Part shown: positions 6,735-23,281 of the stretch, piece by piece
Position numbering within the stretch: position 1 is the first letter of the stretch
Layout: every line of letters starts with the position of its first letter
NCBI GenBank assembly: GCA_945639745.1
Contig: CALZEK010000001.1
Span: 1 to 30,319 of the forward strand
Direction: 5' to 3'
Source of the DNA: an uncultured Bacillaceae bacterium
GTDB taxonomy: Bacteria; Bacillota; Bacilli; Bacillales; Amphibacillaceae
Length of the DNA stretch: 30,319 nt
Notes under the pieces: generated by a model
The model's database searches: none
The model's input: only the letters and a program-made list of their open reading frames with translations
Told to the model about the DNA's origin: nothing
Position numbers and translations under genes: made by a program

Positions 6735-8765
6735 ATGAAAGAGATAAAAGAAAAACCGATTATTACTAATCATTTATGGATTATTTATATCGTTGCACTT
6801 TTAGCGATAGGATTTTTAGTGTACTTTAATTGGTTAGTAGGATTACTAATTGGTGTTCTAGTAACATTATCATTTCTATATATGTATATATCAGAAAGAA
6901 GCTATCAGTTTGAACAACTCGAGTATATATCTAATTTATCTCATCGTGTTTCAGGTGTAGGAAACGATGCATTATTAAAAATGCCTATAGGCATTATCTT
7001 ATACAATGATAACTATGAAATTGAATGGATTAATCCTTATATGAGGGGATTTACAAACAAAGAAAATGTATTTGGTAAATCCTTAGAAGTTATTTCAGAA
7101 AAATTAATAGAAAAAATAGAAGAAGAATCTGAACAAACAACAGAAGAAGATATTGATAGTGATAAATCACCGAAAAAAGAAATAAAAAAACAATTTAATA
7201 TTAAAATAGATAAATATGAGTATGAAGTTAATTTAGATAGAAAACGTCAACTACTTTATTTTATTGATAAAACAGAACAATTAAAATTAGAACGTGAAAA
7301 TTATAATGAAAAAACAGTTATTGCTTTAATTTATTTAGATAACTATGAAGAAATATCTCGTAATATGACTGATAGTGTTAAAAGTCAATTAAATTCTAAA
7401 GTAACTGAAGCATTAAATAAATGGGCTAATAATTATGGTTTCTATATAAAAAGAACAAGTCAAGATAGATTTATGGGGATTTTAACGCGAGAAGTTTTAG
7501 AGAGTGTTGAAAATTCTAAATTTGAAGTATTGGATGAGGTTAGACAATTAGTTATTGATGAGGGTCAACGAAATCCAATTACTTTAAGTATGGGAATTGG
7601 TACAGGAAATGTTGCTGTACCAGAACTTGCTCAACTTGCGCAATCAGGATTAGATTTAGCACTAGGTCGTGGTGGTGACCAAATTACTATTAGAGATGAA
7701 TCAGGTAAAATTAGTTTCTATGGCGGTAAAACAAACCCTATGGAAAAAAGAACGCGTGTGCGGGCAAGAGTCATTTCTCACGCATTAAAAAATCTGGTAG
7801 AAGATAGTGATAATGTTGTGATTATGGGACATAAAGCACCAGATATGGATTCACTAGGTGCAACAATTGGTGTTTTAAATATCGCAAGATCAAATAATAA
7901 AGAAGGTTATATTGTTTTTGATGAAGATGATGTTATGACTGGTGTATCGCGAGTGGTTGAAGAAATTAAACAAGATGGAGAAATTTGGAAGCATTTTGTT
8001 TCACCAGAAGATGCTGAAGCAGTGATTACTGAAAAGAGTTTATTAGTCGTTGTAGATACGCATAAACCATCAATGGTAGCACATTCACCTTTATTGAATG
8101 CAACAGATCATATTGTTGTTATTGATCATCATAGACGTGGAGAGGACTTTATTGATCAACCAGTCTTAGTTTATATGGAACCTTATGCTTCTTCAACAGC
8201 AGAATTAGTAACTGAATTAATTGAATATCAACCTAAAAAGAAAAAACTAAATGCACTTGAAGCAACTTCGTTGTTAGCAGGAATTATTGTTGATACGAAA
8301 AGTTTTGCCCTTAGAACAGGGTCGAGAACCTTTGATGCAGCGTCCTATTTAAGAGCAAAAGGAGCAGACCTTGTTTTAATACAAAAGTTTTTAAAAGAGA
8401 ATTTAAGTACTTATGTTAAAAAAGGTAAACTAATTGAAAAGTCATATTTATACAAAGATGCATTGGCAATTGCTAAAGCAGAAAAAGGAGATGTATTTAA
8501 TCAAGTATTAATTGCACAAACAGCCGATACATTACTCACAATGAATGATGTTAAAGCTTCGTTTGTTATTTCCGAGCGAGATGATAAAATGGTTTCAATT
8601 AGTGCGAGATCCTTAGGTGAAGTCAATGTTCAAATTATTATGGAAGCTCTTAATGGTGGTGGGCATTTAACGAATGCTGCAACTCAAATAAAAGATAAAA
8701 CAATTGATGAAGTAGAAACATTACTTATCGAGGCAATTGATGAATATATAGAGGGGAGAAAATAA
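6735..8765 (+). CDS. gdpP: Cyclic-di-AMP phosphodiesterase GdpP
   Basis: GdpP hydrolyses c-di-AMP to 5'-pApA and so affects osmotic balance, wall stress and beta-lactam tolerance. The 676-residue protein has two N-terminal transmembrane helices (about 14-50), a PAS-like region (about 80-180), a degenerate GGDEF domain (about 195-320, no intact GGDEF), and a DHH-DHHA1 module. Catalytic motifs visible are [12 protein letters not shown] (365-376), VVVDTH (438-443), the DHH triplet at 464-466, and NGGGH near the C terminus. An acidic/basic low-complexity stretch at about 124-153 interrupts the PAS-like region. It sits 2 bases ahead of rplI, whose ribosome binding site lies inside gdpP. Confidence 0.97.
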
Positions 8766-10778: not shown

Positions 10779-11486
10779 ATGAAGCAAAAAATTCTTGTTG
10801 TTGACGATGAAAAGCCAATTGCTGATATATTAAAATTTAACTTAGAAAAAGAAGGTTATGATGTAACGTGTGCACATGATGGAAATGATGCCATTGCTTT
10901 AGCAGAAGAAATCAAGCCCGATATCATCTTACTTGATATTATGTTACCAGGTAAAGACGGCAATGAAGTGTGTAGAGAAGTTAGAAAAACTCAATCCATG
11001 CCAATAATCATGTTAACAGCTAAAGATTCAGAAATAGATAAAGTAATCGGTTTAGAGCTAGGTGCAGATGATTATGTCACAAAACCTTTTAGTAACCGTG
11101 AATTAATTGCTCGAGTAAAAGCTAATTTACGCCGCCATCAACACGTAGAAGAAGATGATGGTGTTCCTACAAAGAAAGATATTATCATTGGTAATTTAAC
11201 AATTCATCCAGATGCCTATAGTGTTTCGCGTAATGGTGAACATATTGATTTAACACATCGTGAATTTGAATTATTTCATTACTTAGCAAGACATATCGGA
11301 CAAGTAATGACGCGCGAACACTTACTTGAAACAGTATGGGGTTATGATTATTTTGGAGATGTGCGAACGGTGGATGTTACAGTCCGTCGTTTAAGAGAAA
11401 AAATTGAAGAAAATCCAAGTAATCCAAATTGGATTGTAACGAGACGTGGAGTAGGCTATTATTTACGTAGTCCAGACGAGGAGTAA
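10779..11486 (+). CDS. walR: Response regulator WalR (YycF/VicR)
   Basis: WalR is the essential OmpR-family response regulator of peptidoglycan metabolism. The 235-residue protein has a receiver domain with the phosphoacceptor D53 in [13 protein letters not shown] and the acid pocket D9-D10. T101-K102 lie in VTKPF; T101 is the position reported as a Ser/Thr-kinase target in WalR orthologues. The C-terminal winged helix ends [17 protein letters not shown]…RGVGYYLR. It has a strong site, AAAGGAG, and is the first gene of walRKHIJ. Promoter elements upstream are weak (TTGATG at 10697 is the best -35). Confidence 0.98.
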
Positions 11487-11492
11487 AAAACA

Positions 11493-13322
11493 ATGAAAAA
11501 AGTTGGTTTTTTTAGATCTATTCAATTAAAATTTATAATAATTTATATATTACTCTTATTAATAGCTGTACAAGTAATAGGTTCTTATGTTGCGCGTGAA
11601 CTTGAAACAGAATTACTTGATAATTATAAAGAGACAATTAACGATCGAATAGATCTATTGAGCTATAATTTAGAACTTACTTTTGAAAAAGATAGAAGTG
11701 AAAATAATGAAGAGCCTACTATGCAAGAAGAAGTCCAAGCAATAATTAATGATGTAAATTTAGGGGGACAGAATACACTCCAAGTTATTAATAATCAAGG
11801 ACGCATTCTTGGAACAAACGATTATAATCAAGATATTGTAGGCAAAAAAATTACTGATGAAATTATTCAAAAAGGAATTAAATCAGGGACTTCTGTTGAT
11901 AGTACTTATATAAAAAGTAAAACAGGGGATCGTATCCTTGTACGTGTTGAGCCAATCCTTGATCAAGACAGACAAATTACAGGAGTTGTTTATTTAGAAA
12001 CATCATTGGAAAGTGTTTATACACAACTTTCGAATATTAATGATATTTTCCTTAAGGGATCGATCATAGCTTTAATTATTTCCGTTTTAATAGGAATCCT
12101 AGTGGCAAGAGCAATTACCAAACCAATTATTGAGATGCGTCGACAAGCTCAAAAGATGGCCAGAGGAGATTTTTCTCAAAAAGTTAATGTTTATGGCTCA
12201 GATGAAATAAGTCAATTAGCAGTAACCTTTAACCATTTAAATGATCGTTTAAAACATTCAATGGCTACAATCGAAAAAGAAAGAAGTAAATTGAGTTCAG
12301 TTTTAGCCAATATGTCAGAAGGTGTTATTGCTACAGATAATGAAGGGCAAATTACGTTAATAAATGAAGCTGCTGGAAAATTATTAGGTAAAAATCCTAA
12401 TTATTTAATTAATCAAAGTTTGATTGAACATCTTGAATTAGAAGAAAAAGTTTTAGGTATGTCAGAACTTCAAGAAGGGGGTTCAATCATCCTTGATTTT
12501 AGTACAGAAGAAATATATTTAGTTAGAGCAAACTTTTCAACAATCTATGATGATTATGATAAAATAAGTGGTTTTATTACCGTTTTAAGTGATGTGACGG
12601 AAGAAGAAAAAATTGAAAGAGAACGAAGAGAGTTTGTTTCGAATGTTTCACACGAATTAAGAACTCCATTAACTACCTTAAGAAGTTATTTAGAAGCATT
12701 GACAGATGGTGCATGGAAAGACGAAGAAATAGCCCCCCACTTTTTAGAAGTGACTCAAAATGAAACAGAACGAATGATTCGTATGGTTAGTAGCTTATTA
12801 GAATTATCTAGAATGGATAGTAAGGCTGACACGCTTCATAGAAGACGTGTAGATTTCACACCTTTCTTTCATGAAATTATCGATCGCTTTGATATGAATC
12901 TCAAAGATGCTGATATAGTCTTAAGTCGTGATATACCGAATGAAACGACTTATGTTTGGATCGATAAAGATAAAATGACTCAAGTACTTGATAATATTAT
13001 ATCTAACGCTGTTAAATATTCACCTGATGGTGGTTTGATAAACTTTAAACTTGAAAAAAGCAGACGACAAATTATCGTCAGTATTAAAGATAATGGAATT
13101 GGAATCGCCTATGATAAACTTGATAAAATATTTGATCGATTTTATCGAGCAGATAAAGCAAGAACAAGAGAAATGGGTGGGACAGGATTAGGTTTAGCTA
13201 TCACTCAAGAAATTGTTGAAGCACATTATGGAAAAATTTGGGTTGATAGTAAAGAAGGTAAAGGAACGACAATATACTTTAGTTTACCGCTCATGAATGA
13301 GATGCGGAGGAGACAGATATGA
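11493..13322 (+). CDS. walK: Sensor histidine kinase WalK (YycG/VicK)
   Basis: WalK phosphorylates WalR in response to cell-wall state. The 609-residue protein has a first transmembrane helix (about 14-33), an extracellular PAS/Cache sensor, a second helix (about 185-206), HAMP (ARAITKPIIEMRRQAQKMARGDF…), a cytoplasmic PAS (about 266-370), the H-box FVSNVSHELRTPLTTLRSYL with H387, and an ATPase domain with N-box DNIISNAVKYS, G1 DNGIGI and G2 GGTGLGLAI. It follows walR by 6 bases, and its stop overlaps the walH start as ATGA. A complete, apparently functional WalK. Confidence 0.98.
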   Translation: MKKVGFFRSIQLKFIIIYILLLLIAVQVIGSYVARELETELLDNYKETINDRIDLLSYNLELTFEKDRSENNEEPTMQEEVQAIINDVNLGGQNTLQVINNQGRILGTNDYNQDIVGKKITDEIIQKGIKSGTSVDSTYIKSKTGDRILVRVEPILDQDRQITGVVYLETSLESVYTQLSNINDIFLKGSIIALIISVLIGILVARAITKPIIEMRRQAQKMARGDFSQKVNVYGSDEISQLAVTFNHLNDRLKHSMATIEKERSKLSSVLANMSEGVIATDNEGQITLINEAAGKLLGKNPNYLINQSLIEHLELEEKVLGMSELQEGGSIILDFSTEEIYLVRANFSTIYDDYDKISGFITVLSDVTEEEKIERERREFVSNVSHELRTPLTTLRSYLEALTDGAWKDEEIAPHFLEVTQNETERMIRMVSSLLELSRMDSKADTLHRRRVDFTPFFHEIIDRFDMNLKDADIVLSRDIPNETTYVWIDKDKMTQVLDNIISNAVKYSPDGGLINFKLEKSRRQIIVSIKDNGIGIAYDKLDKIFDRFYRADKARTREMGGTGLGLAITQEIVEAHYGKIWVDSKEGKGTTIYFSLPLMNEMRRRQI

Positions 13323-14605
13323 CATATGAAACAGTAAAATCATATATCTTAGTAATCCTAATTGGGTTAAGTATATTGTTATCAGTTGCTTTATGGACTT
13401 ATCAACCTAACTACGAACAATTCCAAAATCCAGACTATGTAAATGAAGTAGACATAGGTGGCGAAGTAAAAGAAAAGAAAGATTTAATTAATCCAAGTTC
13501 GATTATTTTTCATGATCATCCAAGGTTATTAGGATTTGAAAATTTAAAAGATCAAATAGAATTACACCAATCTATAAATGAATGGATCATGTATGATTTG
13601 GAAGAGACTGAAAGTAAAGGGAAACCTAATCAAGAAAAATTTGTAGAAATTTTATATCCGAATCCACTCCCAATAGGTGTAGCTTCAAGTTTATTCACTT
13701 TTAATAATGAAATTGAGCTACCAGATTGGGAGTTTGATCGACTTTATTTATCGTTTAATGTTCAAAAGTCATCATTGGAAGTTCAAATAATTTCTGTAGA
13801 TAAAGAAAGGGAACTTTCAGCGACAATAGATAAGCGTGAGAATTATGATATGTTATTTGATTATGCGGTGAACCATACAGAGTTAATTGATTATATAAGT
13901 TTCGATACAAAAAAAGGTCAGATTTATATTCCGAGTCGAGATAAAAAATTAGACTCTAAAACACTCGTGATTAGTAAAATAGCACCAGAAAAACTTGTTA
14001 ATGCATTATTTAGAAACCCGTCTCAAGTAACACCAAATAATGCTGAGGCTTATTTTACAGATGGACAACGTGGCATGAGCATTTTAAATAATAATAAAAT
14101 AGAGTTTATTAATCCAATCCAAACAAATTCAGAAGAATTATCGGCTATAAACGCTCTAGATCAAAGTATTATTCATATTAATGAACACAAAGGTTGGACG
14201 AATGATTATATATTAGAACGGATTATATCTGCCCAAAGTAAAGTGAGATTTAGATTAATATATAAAGGTTTGCCTGTTTTTGACCAAAATAATTTGACTC
14301 TCATCGAACAAAGATGGCGTAATATCGAATTATATGAGTATAATCGTCCTTTAATTCAATTAACCCATGAAATTGATTCGACACAAACAACGCTACCTTC
14401 AGGTAAGAAAGTAATTAATTATATTCAAAATAAAAGCTTATTTGATTTAGATAACATTAGTCAAATGCAAATAGGTTATAAGTTGAATTTTTTATCTGGT
14501 ACATCAGATAATGTTGTACTACTTGAGCCAAATTGGTATGTAAAAGATAAAAATCAATGGAAAATTGTTGATTTAAGTGAATTAGCAGACAAGGGAGGCG
14601 AGTAA
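13319..14605 (+). CDS. walH: WalK regulatory membrane protein WalH (YycH)
   Basis: WalH is a single-pass protein that, with WalI, contacts WalK through transmembrane helices and adjusts its activity. The 428-residue product has an N-terminal helix at about 9-27 (SYILVILIGLSILLSVALWT) followed by WTYQPNYE, a common YycH start, and a long extracytoplasmic domain with no cysteines. It starts in the ATGA overlap with walK and ends immediately before walI. Sequence identity is low across genera, so the assignment rests on the start, size and position. Confidence 0.93.
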   Translation: MTYETVKSYILVILIGLSILLSVALWTYQPNYEQFQNPDYVNEVDIGGEVKEKKDLINPSSIIFHDHPRLLGFENLKDQIELHQSINEWIMYDLEETESKGKPNQEKFVEILYPNPLPIGVASSLFTFNNEIELPDWEFDRLYLSFNVQKSSLEVQIISVDKERELSATIDKRENYDMLFDYAVNHTELIDYISFDTKKGQIYIPSRDKKLDSKTLVISKIAPEKLVNALFRNPSQVTPNNAEAYFTDGQRGMSILNNNKIEFINPIQTNSEELSAINALDQSIIHINEHKGWTNDYILERIISAQSKVRFRLIYKGLPVFDQNNLTLIEQRWRNIELYEYNRPLIQLTHEIDSTQTTLPSGKKVINYIQNKSLFDLDNISQMQIGYKLNFLSGTSDNVVLLEPNWYVKDKNQWKIVDLSELADKGGE

Positions 14606-14606
14606 G

Positions 14607-15527
14607 TTGCAGTGGGGACAAATTAAAACATTGTTAATACTCAGTTTCCTAATTCTAGATATATATTTGTTAATTCAATTTACAGAAAAACAACAGCAAG
14701 CAGATTTATCTGTTTTAGAACATAGTGAATCAACAATAGAAGAGCAATTAAAAGCTGAAAATATTGAAGTGCCTGTGTTGTCTAATAAAGAATATAAAGA
14801 AACATTTATTTCAGTAGAACCGCGTTTGATGTTAAAAGAGGAATTAGAAGCATTAAGTGATTTAGAAAATCAAAACAATGAAGTGATTCAAAATAAATTA
14901 ATCATTTCAAAACTGATTAATCCAATAAGTATACCAAAAGAAGCATCAAAGGATAACATGGAAGATTTTATAAAAGATTTAACTTTATTTTCGGATGAAT
15001 ATTCTTTTTGGGAATGGGATAAAAAAGCTAATATACTCGTTTATTTTCAAGACAAATTAAATCGGCCAATTTATTACAATCAAAATGGTTTATTACTCTT
15101 ATATTTAAATGATGAAAATGAAGTTGTTTATTATACTCAAACAGTTTTAGGCGACCATGAAAAAAATAATGATAAGAGAAGATTAATTACACCAATGAGA
15201 GCAATTGAAACACTCTATGAAGCAGAAACATTTAATAGCAATGATGAAATAAATTCTGTTGAAATTGGTTTTCATACACGAATTCCATTAGATAGTGGGG
15301 TACAGGTATTTGCACCAACTTGGAATATAGAAGTAAACGGCCAATCACATTACTTTGTAAATGCGATTGAGGAATTTATTTTTTCTAGCCATCATCAAGA
15401 ATTTTTTAAAGATACTTTAACAAATATTGAAGAAAAAGCGAGTTTAATAAACAAAACAGAAATTAAAAAAGAAGAATTTATTAAAGAGTTAGATCGAAAA
15501 AATGATTTTATTGAGCGGAGTGAATAA
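14607..15527 (+). CDS. walI: WalK regulatory membrane protein WalI (YycI)
   Basis: WalI acts with WalH on WalK. The 306-residue protein has one N-terminal helix ([19 protein letters not shown], about 7-25) and a YycI-like extracytoplasmic domain containing [15 protein letters not shown] and ending near VNAIEEFIF. The start is TTG at 14607 with AGGGAGG 8 bases upstream; the [14 protein letters not shown] beginning matches the YycI style. It lies 1 base after the walH stop and ends 1 base before walJ, showing a tightly packed operon. Confidence 0.92.
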
Positions 15528-15528
15528 G

Positions 15529-16332
15529 ATGAGTTTACAATTTAGCGTACTTGCTTCAGGTAGTACGGGAAATGCTTTTTATATTGAAGCAGACAAGACT
15601 AAATTATTAGTTGATGCTGGATTAAGTGGTAAACAAATAGAAAAACAATTTTTAGAAATAGAAAAAGACATAGCAGAAATAACGGGAATTCTTGTCACAC
15701 ACGAGCATAGTGACCACATTAAAGGTCTGGGTGTCTTGGCCCGCCGTTACAATTTACCAATATATGCAAATGCAAAAACGTGGGATGCAATGTTACCAAA
15801 AATAGGTAAAATAACAACAGATCAAAAATTTCATTTTGAAGCAAATCAAATAAAAACATTTAATCAATTAGATGTAGAATCATTCTCGGTTTCACATGAT
15901 GCAGTAGATCCGATGTTTTTTACCTTTCATTATAATAATCAAAAAATAGCTTTAGTGACTGATTTAGGGTATGTATCTGAACGTATTAAAAAAACAATTG
16001 AGGGTGCAAATGCATATATATTTGAAGCAAATCATGATGTAAATATGCTACAGATGAGTCATTATCCATGGAGTGTTAAACAAAGAATATTGGGTGATTC
16101 AGGCCATATCTCTAACGAAGATAGTGGTTTAGCACTGAGTGAAATAATATCAAACGATACTGAACGTGTTTATTTAGCTCACTTAAGCCAAGATAATAAT
16201 ATGAAAGACTTAGCGCGTATGTCTGTTGATCAAGTATTGCAAGAACGTGGGATAAACTTAGATTTATTCGATACAGATCCATTAAAACCAACAGAATTAT
16301 TTAAAATAAATCAAAAGAATCCGATTTTATAA
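15529..16332 (+). CDS. walJ: Metallo-beta-lactamase fold exonuclease WalJ (YycJ)
   Basis: WalJ belongs to the metallo-beta-lactamase hydrolases; YycJ-type proteins are double-strand 5' exonucleases linked to mismatch repair and wall/replication coordination. The 267-residue product begins [20 protein letters not shown], and metal ligands are visible in THEHSDH (57-63). Further conserved elements are [21 protein letters not shown] and LAHLS. ATG at 15529 is chosen over the upstream in-frame start at 15502 because the family begins at MSLQF and GGAGTG lies just upstream. It starts 1 base after walI. Confidence 0.96.
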
Positions 16333-16351
16333 TAAAGTCAGGTGAGAAAAA

Positions 16352-17548
16352 ATGGATGAAAACGATGATTTAAAAATAAGTGAAGATACAATTATTGAAC
16401 GGAATCAATCAATACCTAGAAATAAAGGAAGATTTTTCTTTATATTTCTAATCGGCATAATGATTGGTTTAGTCATTATGTTTTTAATTAACGACAAGCA
16501 AACTAAAGAAGTAGAGCAAAAGGAAAGTAAAACTAAAAACGAATCAATTATTGTAGATATAACAACGCAAATAACTGAGATTGTAGAAGAAGTAACCCCA
16601 ACAGTTGTCGGAATAACTAATGTGCAAACTTCAGGTGAGTTTTGGAGACAAGAAAATAATCAAGCTGCCGAAGCGGGAACAGGATCAGGTGTTATCTATA
16701 AAAAAGAAGGAAATAAAGCATTTATTATTACAAACCATCATGTTATAGAAAGCGCAGATGCTTTAGAAGTTATTTTATCAAATGAAAAAACATTAGAAGC
16801 TGAATTACTTGGTAGTGATTTGTTTATGGATCTTGCAGTGCTTCAGGTAGAAGCTGATGAAATAGATGATGTCGTTAAAATAGGTTCATCAGAAAGCATA
16901 AAAGTGGGAGAACCAGTGATCGCAATTGGAAATCCATTAGGACATATGTTTTCAGGATCTGTTACGCAAGGAATTATAAGTGGGAAAAAGCGTAGTATTC
17001 CTCAAGACTTTAATCAAGACGGTCAAGCAGACTGGCAAGCAGAAGTTATTCAAACAGATGCAGCGATTAATCCAGGGAATAGTGGTGGTGCGCTTATTAA
17101 TATAATGGGTGAATTAATCGGGATTAATTCAATGAAAATTAGTCAAACAGTAGCAGAAGGAATTGGTTTTGCAATACCAATAGATGACGCATTACCGATT
17201 ATAGATGAGTTAGAAACAGAAGGTGAAGTGACTCGTCCCTACTTAGGTGTTGAACTTTATTCACTAGATGAGATACCTAAGAGTGAATGGCACACCTCAT
17301 TAGAATTACCGACTGATATCACTGGAGGGGTTTATATTTGGTCTATTGAGCCAGGTTCTCCAGCAGATAAAGCAGGTTTGGAACGTTTAGATATTATTAC
17401 TGAATTAAAAGGCAAAAAAATAGAAAATGTTGTTGATTTAAGAAAGATACTTTATCAAGAAACATCAATTAATGATAAAATAGCTATTACAGCATATCGT
17501 CAAGGTGAAATATTTGAAACAGAAGTTACTTTAACTAAACAAGAATAA
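16352..17548 (+). CDS. htrA: Membrane-anchored HtrA/DegP-type serine protease
   Basis: This is an S1C family quality-control protease acting on misfolded extracytoplasmic proteins. The 398-residue protein has a cytoplasmic N terminus, one transmembrane helix (about 28-46), a linker, a trypsin-like domain with the triad H130 (TNHHVI), D160 (MDLAVL) and S244 (NPGNSGGAL), and a C-terminal PDZ domain (about 295-395, GVYIWSIEPGSPADKAGL). It lies 19 bases after walJ, the position of htrC (yyxA) in Bacillus, so it is probably transcribed with wal. The gene ends at a strong bidirectional terminator. The symbol is generic; HtrA and HtrC cannot be separated here. Confidence 0.96.
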   Translation: MDENDDLKISEDTIIERNQSIPRNKGRFFFIFLIGIMIGLVIMFLINDKQTKEVEQKESKTKNESIIVDITTQITEIVEEVTPTVVGITNVQTSGEFWRQENNQAAEAGTGSGVIYKKEGNKAFIITNHHVIESADALEVILSNEKTLEAELLGSDLFMDLAVLQVEADEIDDVVKIGSSESIKVGEPVIAIGNPLGHMFSGSVTQGIISGKKRSIPQDFNQDGQADWQAEVIQTDAAINPGNSGGALINIMGELIGINSMKISQTVAEGIGFAIPIDDALPIIDELETEGEVTRPYLGVELYSLDEIPKSEWHTSLELPTDITGGVYIWSIEPGSPADKAGLERLDIITELKGKKIENVVDLRKILYQETSINDKIAITAYRQGEIFETEVTLTKQE

Positions 17549-17824: not shown

Positions 17825-18487
17825 TTATAAATCGCGTTTACAGAAATAGAAGTCGACACATTCATAATCTTTATTATTCATGCGCTCTTCAGCACCTTCT
17901 TGAGTTGCAGCAGGTGGAACAATAACTTTTTCACCAGGCTGCCAATCAGCAGGTGTTGCAACTTGATGCTCATCAGCTGTTTGTAGTGCTTTTACTAGAC
18001 GTAGGATTTCATCCATATTGCGTCCTGTTGATAGAGGATAATAAATAATTGATCTGACAACTTGTTTCTCATCAATTACAAATACAGCACGTGAAGCTTC
18101 TGTTGAACTTTCATTAGGCATAATCATGCCATATTTTTTTGAAACATCCATTGAAAGGTCAGCAATGACTGGAAATTCAATTTTTGTACCAAAATTTTCT
18201 TCAATATTTCTAACCCAAGCAATATGTGAACTAATACTATCCACACTTAAGCCGAGTAATTCTGTATTCAATTCTTTTAAATCAGCCGAAATATTTTGGA
18301 AGCCAATGAATTCGGTTGTACAAACGGGTGTAAAGTCAGCCGGATGTGAAAATAAGACAACCCAACTCCCCTTATAATCTTCTAATTTCAAATTACCATG
18401 TGTTGTTACAGCTTCAAATTGTGGTGCGGCATCACCAATTCGTGGTAGTGAACGAACTTCAGTATTGTTTACGTGTTCTTCAGTCAT
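17825..18487 (-). CDS. Peroxiredoxin, Prx6-type (AhpC/TSA family)
   Basis: This enzyme reduces hydrogen peroxide and organic peroxides. The 220-residue protein has the peroxidatic motif PADFTPVCTTE with Cys56, the family's partner Arg within MIMPNESSTEASRAVFVID, and the long C-terminal arm of the Prx6 group (QTADEHQVATPADWQPGEKV…). The arm ends ECVDFYFCKRDL, so there are two more cysteines, C210 and C216. These are spaced as in archaeal Prx6 enzymes, where one acts as a resolving cysteine, so this is probably not a true 1-Cys enzyme. A clear AAAGGAG precedes the ATG. The promoter overlaps a PerR-box-like element. Confidence 0.94.
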   Translation of the reverse strand: MTEEHVNNTEVRSLPRIGDAAPQFEAVTTHGNLKLEDYKGSWVVLFSHPADFTPVCTTEFIGFQNISADLKELNTELLGLSVDSISSHIAWVRNIEENFGTKIEFPVIADLSMDVSKKYGMIMPNESSTEASRAVFVIDEKQVVRSIIYYPLSTGRNMDEILRLVKALQTADEHQVATPADWQPGEKVIVPPAATQEGAEERMNNKDYECVDFYFCKRDL

Positions 18488-18576: not shown

Positions 18577-18752
18577 TTATTCACAAAATTCAGATAAACT
18601 TTCACAAGTTATCCACAATTAATGGTTAGTTACACACAATAGGTGGATAACTTTTGGGAATGTGTGTTCTTAGTACATGTTATGGAATGTTAATAAGTTT
18701 AAATGTCTACATGTATACAAAAAATATTTTTTGGGGATTGTTTTGTGGATAA
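18577..18752. promoter_or_regulatory. DnaA-box cluster in the peroxiredoxin-GNAT gap
   Basis: Two perfect DnaA boxes (TTATCCACA at 18609-18617; TGTGGATAA at 18744-18752) are joined by TTATTCACA (18577-18585), GGTGGATAA (18642-18650) and the weaker TTACACACA (18630-18638). A/T-rich DNA follows, including a 16-base A/T palindrome at 18718-18733. The 282-base gap has no gene. It resembles the DnaA-titration clusters of Bacillus more than oriC, because dnaA and dnaN are not adjacent. Confidence 0.8.
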
Positions 18753-18769: not shown

Positions 18770-19315
18770 TTAATTAACATTCCACTCGTTTTTTAACAAT
18801 CCAAATACTAGATGATCGACATAATGATTGCCTAACCATTCGGCTTGTCTAAGCTGGCCTTCTAATTTAAAATTAAGTCGTTTAGGGATTGCTTGGCTTT
18901 TCTTATTTTCAAAGGCTGTTCGAATGTCTATTTTATTTAAATTTAATTCAGTAAAACCATAATCAATTAAAGCTGAAACAGCTTTTGTCATAATGCCTTT
19001 ACCTTGATAGTCCTCAGCTAGCCAATATCCTATATATCCAATGTTATTTTGCCAATCGAATTCATTAAAGCTAATAATACCTACTAATAAATTATCAATA
19101 AATATACCTGCTCTTAGTTCTAATCTATTCGCATAAGTATGAAAAGAGTTGGTAATAGAAGTTTTTACATCTTGTAAGTTTTTAGAATCATTTAACCAAG
19201 GCAACCATTCTTCTAAGTATTGACGTGATGAATCAATAAGCTCAAATAATCTATTTGCATCACGAATAGAAAGCATGCGTAGTGTCATTTCTTCATCAAT
19301 ATCTAGGATAAACAT
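18770..19315 (-). CDS. GNAT acetyltransferase, RimL/ribosomal-protein-serine type
   Basis: This is a GNAT-fold N-acetyltransferase that uses acetyl-CoA. The 181-residue protein follows the RimL/YdaF pattern: LRMLSIRDANRLFELIDSSR, then YLEEWLPWL, the acetyl-CoA-binding stretch IGYWLAEDYQGKGIMTKAVSAL (Q/RxxGxG-type loop QGKGIM), and ENKKSQAIPKRLNFKLEGQLRQAEWL. The substrate is unknown; ribosomal proteins, peptides or toxins are all possible. AAGGTGAT precedes the ATG. It follows the TSUP gene by 21 bases on the same strand and is probably co-transcribed. Its transcript has no obvious terminator before the DnaA-box region. Confidence 0.9.
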   Translation of the reverse strand: MFILDIDEEMTLRMLSIRDANRLFELIDSSRQYLEEWLPWLNDSKNLQDVKTSITNSFHTYANRLELRAGIFIDNLLVGIISFNEFDWQNNIGYIGYWLAEDYQGKGIMTKAVSALIDYGFTELNLNKIDIRTAFENKKSQAIPKRLNFKLEGQLRQAEWLGNHYVDHLVFGLLKNEWNVN

Positions 19316-22964: not shown

Positions 22965-22987
22965 AATTTTAAAAGGTGGCATTTAAA

Positions 22988-23281
22988 ATGGAGTTAATTG
23001 TAAAGCATCCCTATATTAAAGTAATTAGAGAAGTTACTAAACTTGAAAAGAAAGAAATAAAAGAAAATCGTGAATTAAAATTATATGAAAATAAATTAAC
23101 AACACGTCATCGTGAGTTTTCAATTGATGATTTAATCAAAGTAGCAACACGGAAAATAGGCGAAACAGGTGGACTTATTTTTATCCACACAGAAAGTGGT
23201 GTTTTTACTTATACGGTAGAAAAAATTGATAAAAACTTTATCCACATTGTTAATAACTTAATTTGGGAGAGAAAAAAATGA
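22988..23281 (+). CDS. Hypothetical protein, 97 residues
   Basis: I do not recognise this family. ATG at 22988 is chosen because AAAGGTGG lies 8 bases upstream; GTG at 22976 lies in that site. The protein is soluble, charged in the first half (KLEKKEIKENRELKLYENKL) and beta-rich in the second (TGGLIFIHTESGVFTYTVEKIDKNFIHIVNN), with no signal peptide or cysteines. Its stop overlaps the threonine dehydratase start in ATGA, so translation is coupled and a shared role is plausible. The gene carries two perfect DnaA boxes (23181 and 23238) in its coding sequence. Confidence 0.78.
   Translation: MELIVKHPYIKVIREVTKLEKKEIKENRELKLYENKLTTRHREFSIDDLIKVATRKIGETGGLIFIHTESGVFTYTVEKIDKNFIHIVNNLIWERKK

Follow-up and report, generated by a model that had tools for sequence, protein, structure and literature searches.

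How Bacillus and its relatives prevent a second start of replication without the machinery of Escherichia coli is an open question. In B. subtilis, the removal of six DnaA-box clusters outside oriC is reported to cause early initiation (PMC5295017 and PMC13220808, reviewing Okumura et al. 2012), the phenotype being strong only when all six are removed (PMC5295017), and for the role of these clusters a single deletion study stands behind the reviews (PMC5295017, PMC13220808). DnaA is also described as binding upstream of the B. subtilis gene yydA, at seven sites spanning yyzF and with an apparent Kd of 0.16 µM for ATP-DnaA (PMC4447404), and the cluster near yydA to which the original prediction had pointed is therefore real. 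The question raised by the locus analyzed here, a group of DnaA boxes downstream of walRKHIJ-htrA in an uncultured bacterium of low GC content, is whether it is the counterpart of that site, as proposed when it was called a conserved titration site. The window, that is, the whole stretch of DNA that was analyzed, comprises 30,319 nucleotides, and the features needed below are the following.

10779..17548, +: walR, walK, walH, walI, walJ, and htrA, the syntenic anchor (walJ with metallo-hydrolase matches)
17825..18487, -: peroxiredoxin gene between htrA and the cluster, with the same arrangement in locus L032
18488..18769, no strand: gene-free gap with the cluster, containing no ORF of at least 80 codons (shorter ORFs are not listed)
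18577..18585, +: upstream DnaA box TTATTCACA, 32 bp upstream of box 1, outside the genus geometry and with no aligned box in L032
18609..18617, +: box 1, TTATCCACA, perfect, position conserved in the genus
18630..18638, +: box 2, TTACACACA, two mismatches, the counterpart in the geometry of the yyzF + box of other families, identical in L032 of the same genus
18642..18650, -: box 3, TTATCCACC, one mismatch, 12 bp from box 2
18732..18740, -: position of box 4, eroded, three mismatches (one or none in the other six genus genomes searched)
18744..18752, -: box 5, TTATCCACA, perfect, 12 bp from box 4
18770..19315, -: GNAT acetyltransferase gene (family match) on the far side of the cluster

The cluster and its chromosomal setting

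The genes of the window are, in order, parA (cut), a parB/noc-type gene, mscS, ychF, rpsF, ssb, a gdpP-type gene, rplI, the replicative helicase gene, walR, and walK. Next come two ORFs with no family match, at the positions of walH and walI, then a metallo-hydrolase ORF at that of walJ, and finally htrA; the names walH, walI, and walJ are presumed from position. About 1.06 kb past htrA, the boxes lie, as had been stated, in a gene-free gap, which is flanked by the peroxiredoxin and GNAT genes. Of the two perfect and three near boxes first counted in 176 bp, the perfect ones at 18609 (+) and 18744 (-) and those with one mismatch at 18577 (+) and 18642 (-) were found again in the letters of the window, but the third near box, at 18630 (+), has two mismatches.

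The estimate of fewer than one perfect box by chance in 30 kb, against the four present in the window, was borne out by Markov windows, in which the mean was 0.38, 0.42, and 0.35 at order 1, 2, and 3, respectively. At least four boxes including two perfect ones within 176 bp occurred in 0 of 1000 such windows at each of the three orders, and the cluster is thus real and dense beyond chance, as is characteristic of a site of the B. subtilis yydA type. For the window taken as a whole, near boxes showed no enrichment (15, with a shuffle mean of 10.6 and 14 of 100 shuffles as high), and a genome-wide enrichment was rejected, with 25 perfect boxes in the 1.58-Mb genome against 31 for the reversed-motif control; the signal is therefore local. 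The remaining two perfect boxes of the window, at 23181 and 23238, were rejected as members of the cluster because they are coding (small ORF 22976–23281) and 4.4 kb distant. This pair, 57 bp apart (23181–23246) in an ORF of 101 codons with no Pfam match, has an equally spaced pair of perfect boxes in L032, at 18746 and 18803. Elsewhere in the same genome, on contig C40 (3013–3171; L288 1514–1672), two perfect boxes 21 bp apart and two one-mismatch boxes nearby, all on one strand, lie between a regulator-like ORF and an 870-codon ORF and form a candidate second cluster outside oriC.

DnaA boxes beside A/T-rich DNA could also mark a secondary or displaced replication origin. The gene dnaA, however, is on contig C10 (6477–7787, -), with one perfect and three one-mismatch boxes upstream of it (8028–8192). 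Over most of the window, the GC skew has positive values. It drops below zero at 18–20 kb and 24–26 kb, where both negative stretches coincide with genes on the - strand, and then recovers; a lasting switch of the origin type is absent at the cluster. With dnaA and its own boxes on C10 and no lasting switch, the cluster is not oriC itself, a point that the original prediction had left to GC skew and to the location of dnaA, and a second origin at this place is extremely unlikely. C10 carries a 280-codon ORF with the size of noc and then breaks off within an apparent parA start, and the window opens within parA; presumably about 40 bp are missing at the junction. If the contigs are neighbors, about 26.4 kb separate the cluster from the dnaA-upstream boxes, so that the position of the cluster, after walRKHIJ-htrA, would be near oriC yet outside it.

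Conservation of the boxes and of their spacing

Within the genus, an htrA search was made over seven genomes, the window's own included. Downstream of htrA, the box geometry +<20/21>+<12>-<90/91>-<12>- was recognizable in all seven (7/7), the criterion being that three of the four positions 2 to 5 lie within one mismatch of TTATNCACA. The mismatches at positions 2–5 were 1,1,3,0 in the window, 1,1,1,2 in G003 (the same as L032), 0,1,0,0 in G006, 1,2,0,1 in G004, 0,1,0,1 in G001, and 0,1,1,0 in both G002 and G005, with all four positions within one mismatch in 4 of the 7 genomes. In the window, this site alone satisfied the criterion, and a single additional match was found, on the opposite strand of L118. 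The GNAT region had matches in G002, G003, G005, and G006.

The weakened boxes are box 4 (three mismatches) and box 2 (two) in the window, box 5 in L032 (two), and box 3 in G004 (two). The window's copy of the cluster is thus partly eroded and weaker than in most relatives, and it may be under relaxed selection. With two of the five conserved positions degraded in the window and one in L032, the site could be taken for a decaying relic, functional in relatives and no longer so in this lineage. This we consider improbable, as boxes 1 and 5 have remained perfect, a single mismatch is present in box 3, and the segment that runs from box 1 to box 3 shows good conservation when the window is compared with L032. 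The region upstream of the organism's own dnaA, moreover, is itself poor in good boxes, so that a small number of them need not mean that function was lost.

For a wider set, one scan for relatives of walJ yielded 80 named loci. In 75 of these, all but L032, L054, L068, L074, and L105, the densest 300-bp box cluster of the locus was at most 1.7 kb after htrA. A triple, composed of a + box, - boxes at +92 to +95, and then a further one after 12–13 bp, was present after htrA in 67 of the 78 loci that remain when L061 and L074 are set aside for their short flanks (L061 does have the triple). Together with the seven genus genomes, this confirms that the boxes are conserved in relatives at the syntenic place, as had been supposed. 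As controls in the same loci, the reversed motif gave no triple and the opposite orientation three, while the remaining 1,474,278 bases held two, both in loci without a triple at htrA. These displaced triples are found 5.7 kb (L054, at 17767) and 4.3 kb (L068, at 16743) past htrA, an arrangement that would fit an insertion of DNA between the gene and the cluster. The triple was missing near htrA in 11 of the 78 loci (L032, L054, L068, L069, L083, L096, L101, L102, L103, L105, and L109), eight of which, that is, all but L054, L068, and L105, kept at least two boxes at other spacings. No DnaA box was found in the 0.6 kb covered after htrA (12030–12668) in L105, from Terrihalobacillus insolitus. 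This stretch contains repeated units.

Among the 69 loci without yyzF, two - boxes were 12 bp apart in 65 and 8 bp apart in 56, and the distance from + to - was 12 bp in 57, 106 bp in 38, and 94 bp in 29, the mean being 3.4 loci per + to - distance. Where a + box is followed by a - box at 93–95 bp, as in 61 loci, the + box starts anywhere from 20 to 1380 bp from htrA; the internal spacing is held and the placement drifts. The yyzF-type spacing, with - boxes near +93/94 and +106 of the + box, is present in other genera, while in the window's genus these boxes are at +102/103 and +114/115, the first being eroded in the window, and box 3 is separated from box 4 by 90–91 bp instead of the approximately 82 bp of related genera.

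The gene yyzF and the neighboring genes

In Bacillus-type loci, the + box is inside an ORF of about 50–60 codons. Three such ORFs were scanned and belong to NCBIfam TIGR04129 (CxxH/CxxC protein), and by its position this ORF is the yyzF of B. subtilis. It was detected by regular expression in 9 of the 80 loci and also by eye in L092, with Ile for Leu. Over the order, 250 of 299 genomes had a yyzF match, and those listed are all outside the window's family; in that family no match was found, 12 of its genomes, the window's own included, being among the non-matching ones listed (29 additional non-matching genomes are outside the list). From this spread in the order, we infer that yyzF was lost, not gained, in loci without the ORF. 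In such loci, the 3' end of yyzF is still readable. L095, which has no ORF, reads ISTACE*GYG*VAYMVAN in the same frame where L094 gives LSTGCEYCGERSVYMVAN, and its first stop comes from TGTGAATAA, simultaneously a match to box 3.

Codon use was compared in 110 fetched yyzF loci, which are the best or listed matches of the 250 genomes and no random draw. The box site reads Leu-Ser-Thr in 91 of the 110 genes. It was written as TTATCCACA in 40 of the 91, against 1.5 expected from the codon use of neighboring ORFs, and was within one mismatch of the box in 84, against 11.1; Thr was ACA, and Ser was TCC or TCA, in all 91. By the commonest form per genus, 20 of 44 genera had a perfect box and 41 one within one mismatch, and the p-values per gene and per genus assume independence and are not to be taken literally. 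The 19 genes counted as deviating, all outside the 91, include at least three (L129, L131, and L153) that do read Leu-Ser-Thr, as well as one LFT equal to TTATTCACA, three IST equal to ATATCCACA, and one MST equal to ATGTCCACA. In genus g81, the site reads SEF or SGF, and no box is present there.

The synonymous entropy was zero bits for the Thr codon in the box and 1.23 bits for the next Thr, and it was 1.11 bits for the Leu in the box against 2.17 for the Leu at position 6. Low values were also seen elsewhere in yyzF, at Cys +4 (0.39), Glu +5 (0.31), and Tyr +13 (0.39), each of 1 bit, the first two being the expected place of box 3; many conserved sites of the gene, though not all, are freer in synonymous codons than the box. 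These counts show that the predicted DnaA box in yyzF is under selection at the codon level. Relative to the Leu-Ser-Thr site, - boxes peaked at +93 (69 of 110), +106 (62), +72 (53), and +85 (36).

Several other elements were seen in this part of the loci. In G001 (L116 2594–2818), a small cysteine-rich ORF follows htrA, its end overlapping the boxes, and contains Leu-Ser-Thr twice, each time written as a perfect box. The conserved stretch between boxes 3 and 4 was tried as a covarying dyad or hairpin, and this was dropped because the folds were weak and inconsistent in many sequences and because, in Bacillus-type loci, much of the stretch is the yyzF 3' end. A long perfect inverted repeat lies between boxes 3 and 4 in L110 (Gracilibacillus dipsosauri, 12131–12171), and in some other genera the dyad at this place has arms that differ yet pair, for which yyzF ancestry alone is no explanation. 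Next to the stretch, CGAACATTTGTGC was at first read as an SOS-like box, a reading that was set aside. In many Oceanobacillus/Virgibacillus-type loci, strong conservation is also seen for TACGAACATTTGTGCATATG, which lies immediately upstream of box 4 and is similar to a degenerate SOS box; it is found in neither the window nor L032.

The first downstream ORF of at least 110 codons was grouped for 75 of the 80 loci (without L054, L061, L068, L074, and L105) and fell into 17 groups on both strands. One group holds 32 of the 75, so that the neighbors are not all different, and a few singletons look spurious (L051 and L060). The gene rlmH (yydA) was this ORF in six loci, each with yyzF. It had no match in the window's own genome, which is 80% complete, and L257, the sole rlmH locus read from the window's family, had no upstream box. 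Outside the order and within the class, 20 of 31 rlmH loci, taken from the better matches and with L261, in the wrong frame, counted as a miss, had at least three boxes in the 450 bp upstream. Where resampled upstream stretches were tested, they contained on average no more than 0.03 perfect boxes and 0.39 boxes with one mismatch. Loci with at least three boxes belong to families f49, f51, f55, f58, f62, f66, f73, and f85; at most one box was found upstream of rlmH in f50, f54, f57, f59, f64, f68, and f69, and two in f78. The variety of downstream ORFs shows that the site survives beside different genes. The window's cluster itself neither spans yyzF nor lies upstream of rlmH, and with no yyzF in its own genome or in the family genomes listed, and no rlmH match in its own genome, it is a variant and no plain member of the yydA-type site.

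Bound DnaA might instead regulate an adjacent gene. The cluster is upstream of the peroxiredoxin gene, whose start is about 90 bp from the nearest box, and B. subtilis yyzF-yydABCD is given among the genes directly regulated by DnaA (PMC8203912). Such a transcription-control site is nevertheless unlikely, since the downstream ORFs are so diverse and on either strand (even with 32 of 75 in one group), of the loci examined, only the window and L032 have the peroxiredoxin gene beside the cluster, and the window's family has no yyzF match among the genomes listed. Because the boxes keep their place and spacing where the surrounding genes were lost or swapped, the evidence points to a role in timing DNA replication rather than in the control of one gene.

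Proposed role and comparison with known systems

The reading that we favor, and hold to be likely, treats the window's site as orthologous to the yydA cluster of B. subtilis, a site outside oriC that holds several DnaA molecules and thereby restrains initiation. The binding of DnaA in this species and its effect on initiation are what we infer from this relationship, and a titration role would follow by analogy with the genetics of B. subtilis as reviewed (PMC5295017, PMC13220808). At about 26 kb from oriC, the site would be copied almost at once after initiation and, being close to oriC and copied early, its doubling would take up free DnaA and make a second start less probable. In relatives, a tandem - pair 12–13 bp apart is preceded at about 94 bp by an opposed + box, and spacing as fixed as this suggests that DnaA forms a defined complex at the site and that the site is no loose sink. 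The roughly 94 bp of the relatives are close to nine helical turns; in the window's genus, however, the distance of 102–103 bp does not exceed this by whole turns, so that phasing can be no more than suggested.

A broader proposal, possible though on balance doubtful, is that the cluster is an ancient regulatory DNA element of the Bacilli with a fixed architecture, that yyzF is partly its carrier, and that the defined DnaA complex is a functional counterpart of datA or DARS. Selection would then hold the box in the codons of yyzF, and the gene would have dissolved in the window's family and in several related genera while boxes and spacing stayed. A further reading is a nucleotide switch, in which the site, as the Bacilli equivalent of datA or DARS, would alter the ATP/ADP state of the DnaA that it binds and not only hold it. 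The fixed spacing and orientation, with a tandem pair and an opposed box, are as described for datA and DARS (PMC5742627), and the B. subtilis yydA region is one of two reported to have a slight preference for ADP-DnaA, at one concentration only (PMC4447404). We regard a switch as very unlikely, however, as B. subtilis is described as being without IHF and without the datA and DARS loci (PMC13220808) and as the DARS2 boxes of at most one mismatch do not share the spacing, a weak comparison because the scan was confined to boxes of this quality.

A cluster kept for its spacing through the loss of its housing gene would mean that one such site matters in nature, and the conserved boxes and distances provide named targets for mutation. 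The yyzF genes also offer a case of selection for a protein-binding site within coding sequence that is readable at the codon level. On the conservation or spacing of this cluster outside B. subtilis, no paper was found by title or start of abstract, in a search that covers the subscription literature thinly.

Compared with oriC on the dnaA promoter side, the cluster is alike in its +<12>- box pair, which is also found upstream of dnaA in the same genome (C10 8028/8040), and unlike in having no dnaA beside it. With the B. subtilis cluster upstream of yydA (rlmH), it shares the place after the wal genes and htrA/htrC near oriC, the presence of several boxes, and a + box whose counterpart sits in yyzF. 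It differs from that cluster in the lack of a yyzF match in its own genome and of an adjacent rlmH, in two eroded box positions, and in the peroxiredoxin gene that separates it from htrA. Like E. coli datA, it is a non-coding site outside oriC, here with predicted DnaA binding, in which spacing and orientation are constrained; datA, however, is described as needing an IHF site and as having essential boxes that point one way (PMC5742627), whereas here they point both ways. The E. coli sites DARS1 and DARS2 likewise combine, at a fixed spacing, two boxes with a third in the opposed orientation, but no nucleotide exchange is known for the present site. Finally, E. coli DnaA is reported to favor paired boxes 2–3 bp apart (PMC11317965), and a gap of 3 bp corresponds to the 12-bp start-to-start spacing of these clusters.
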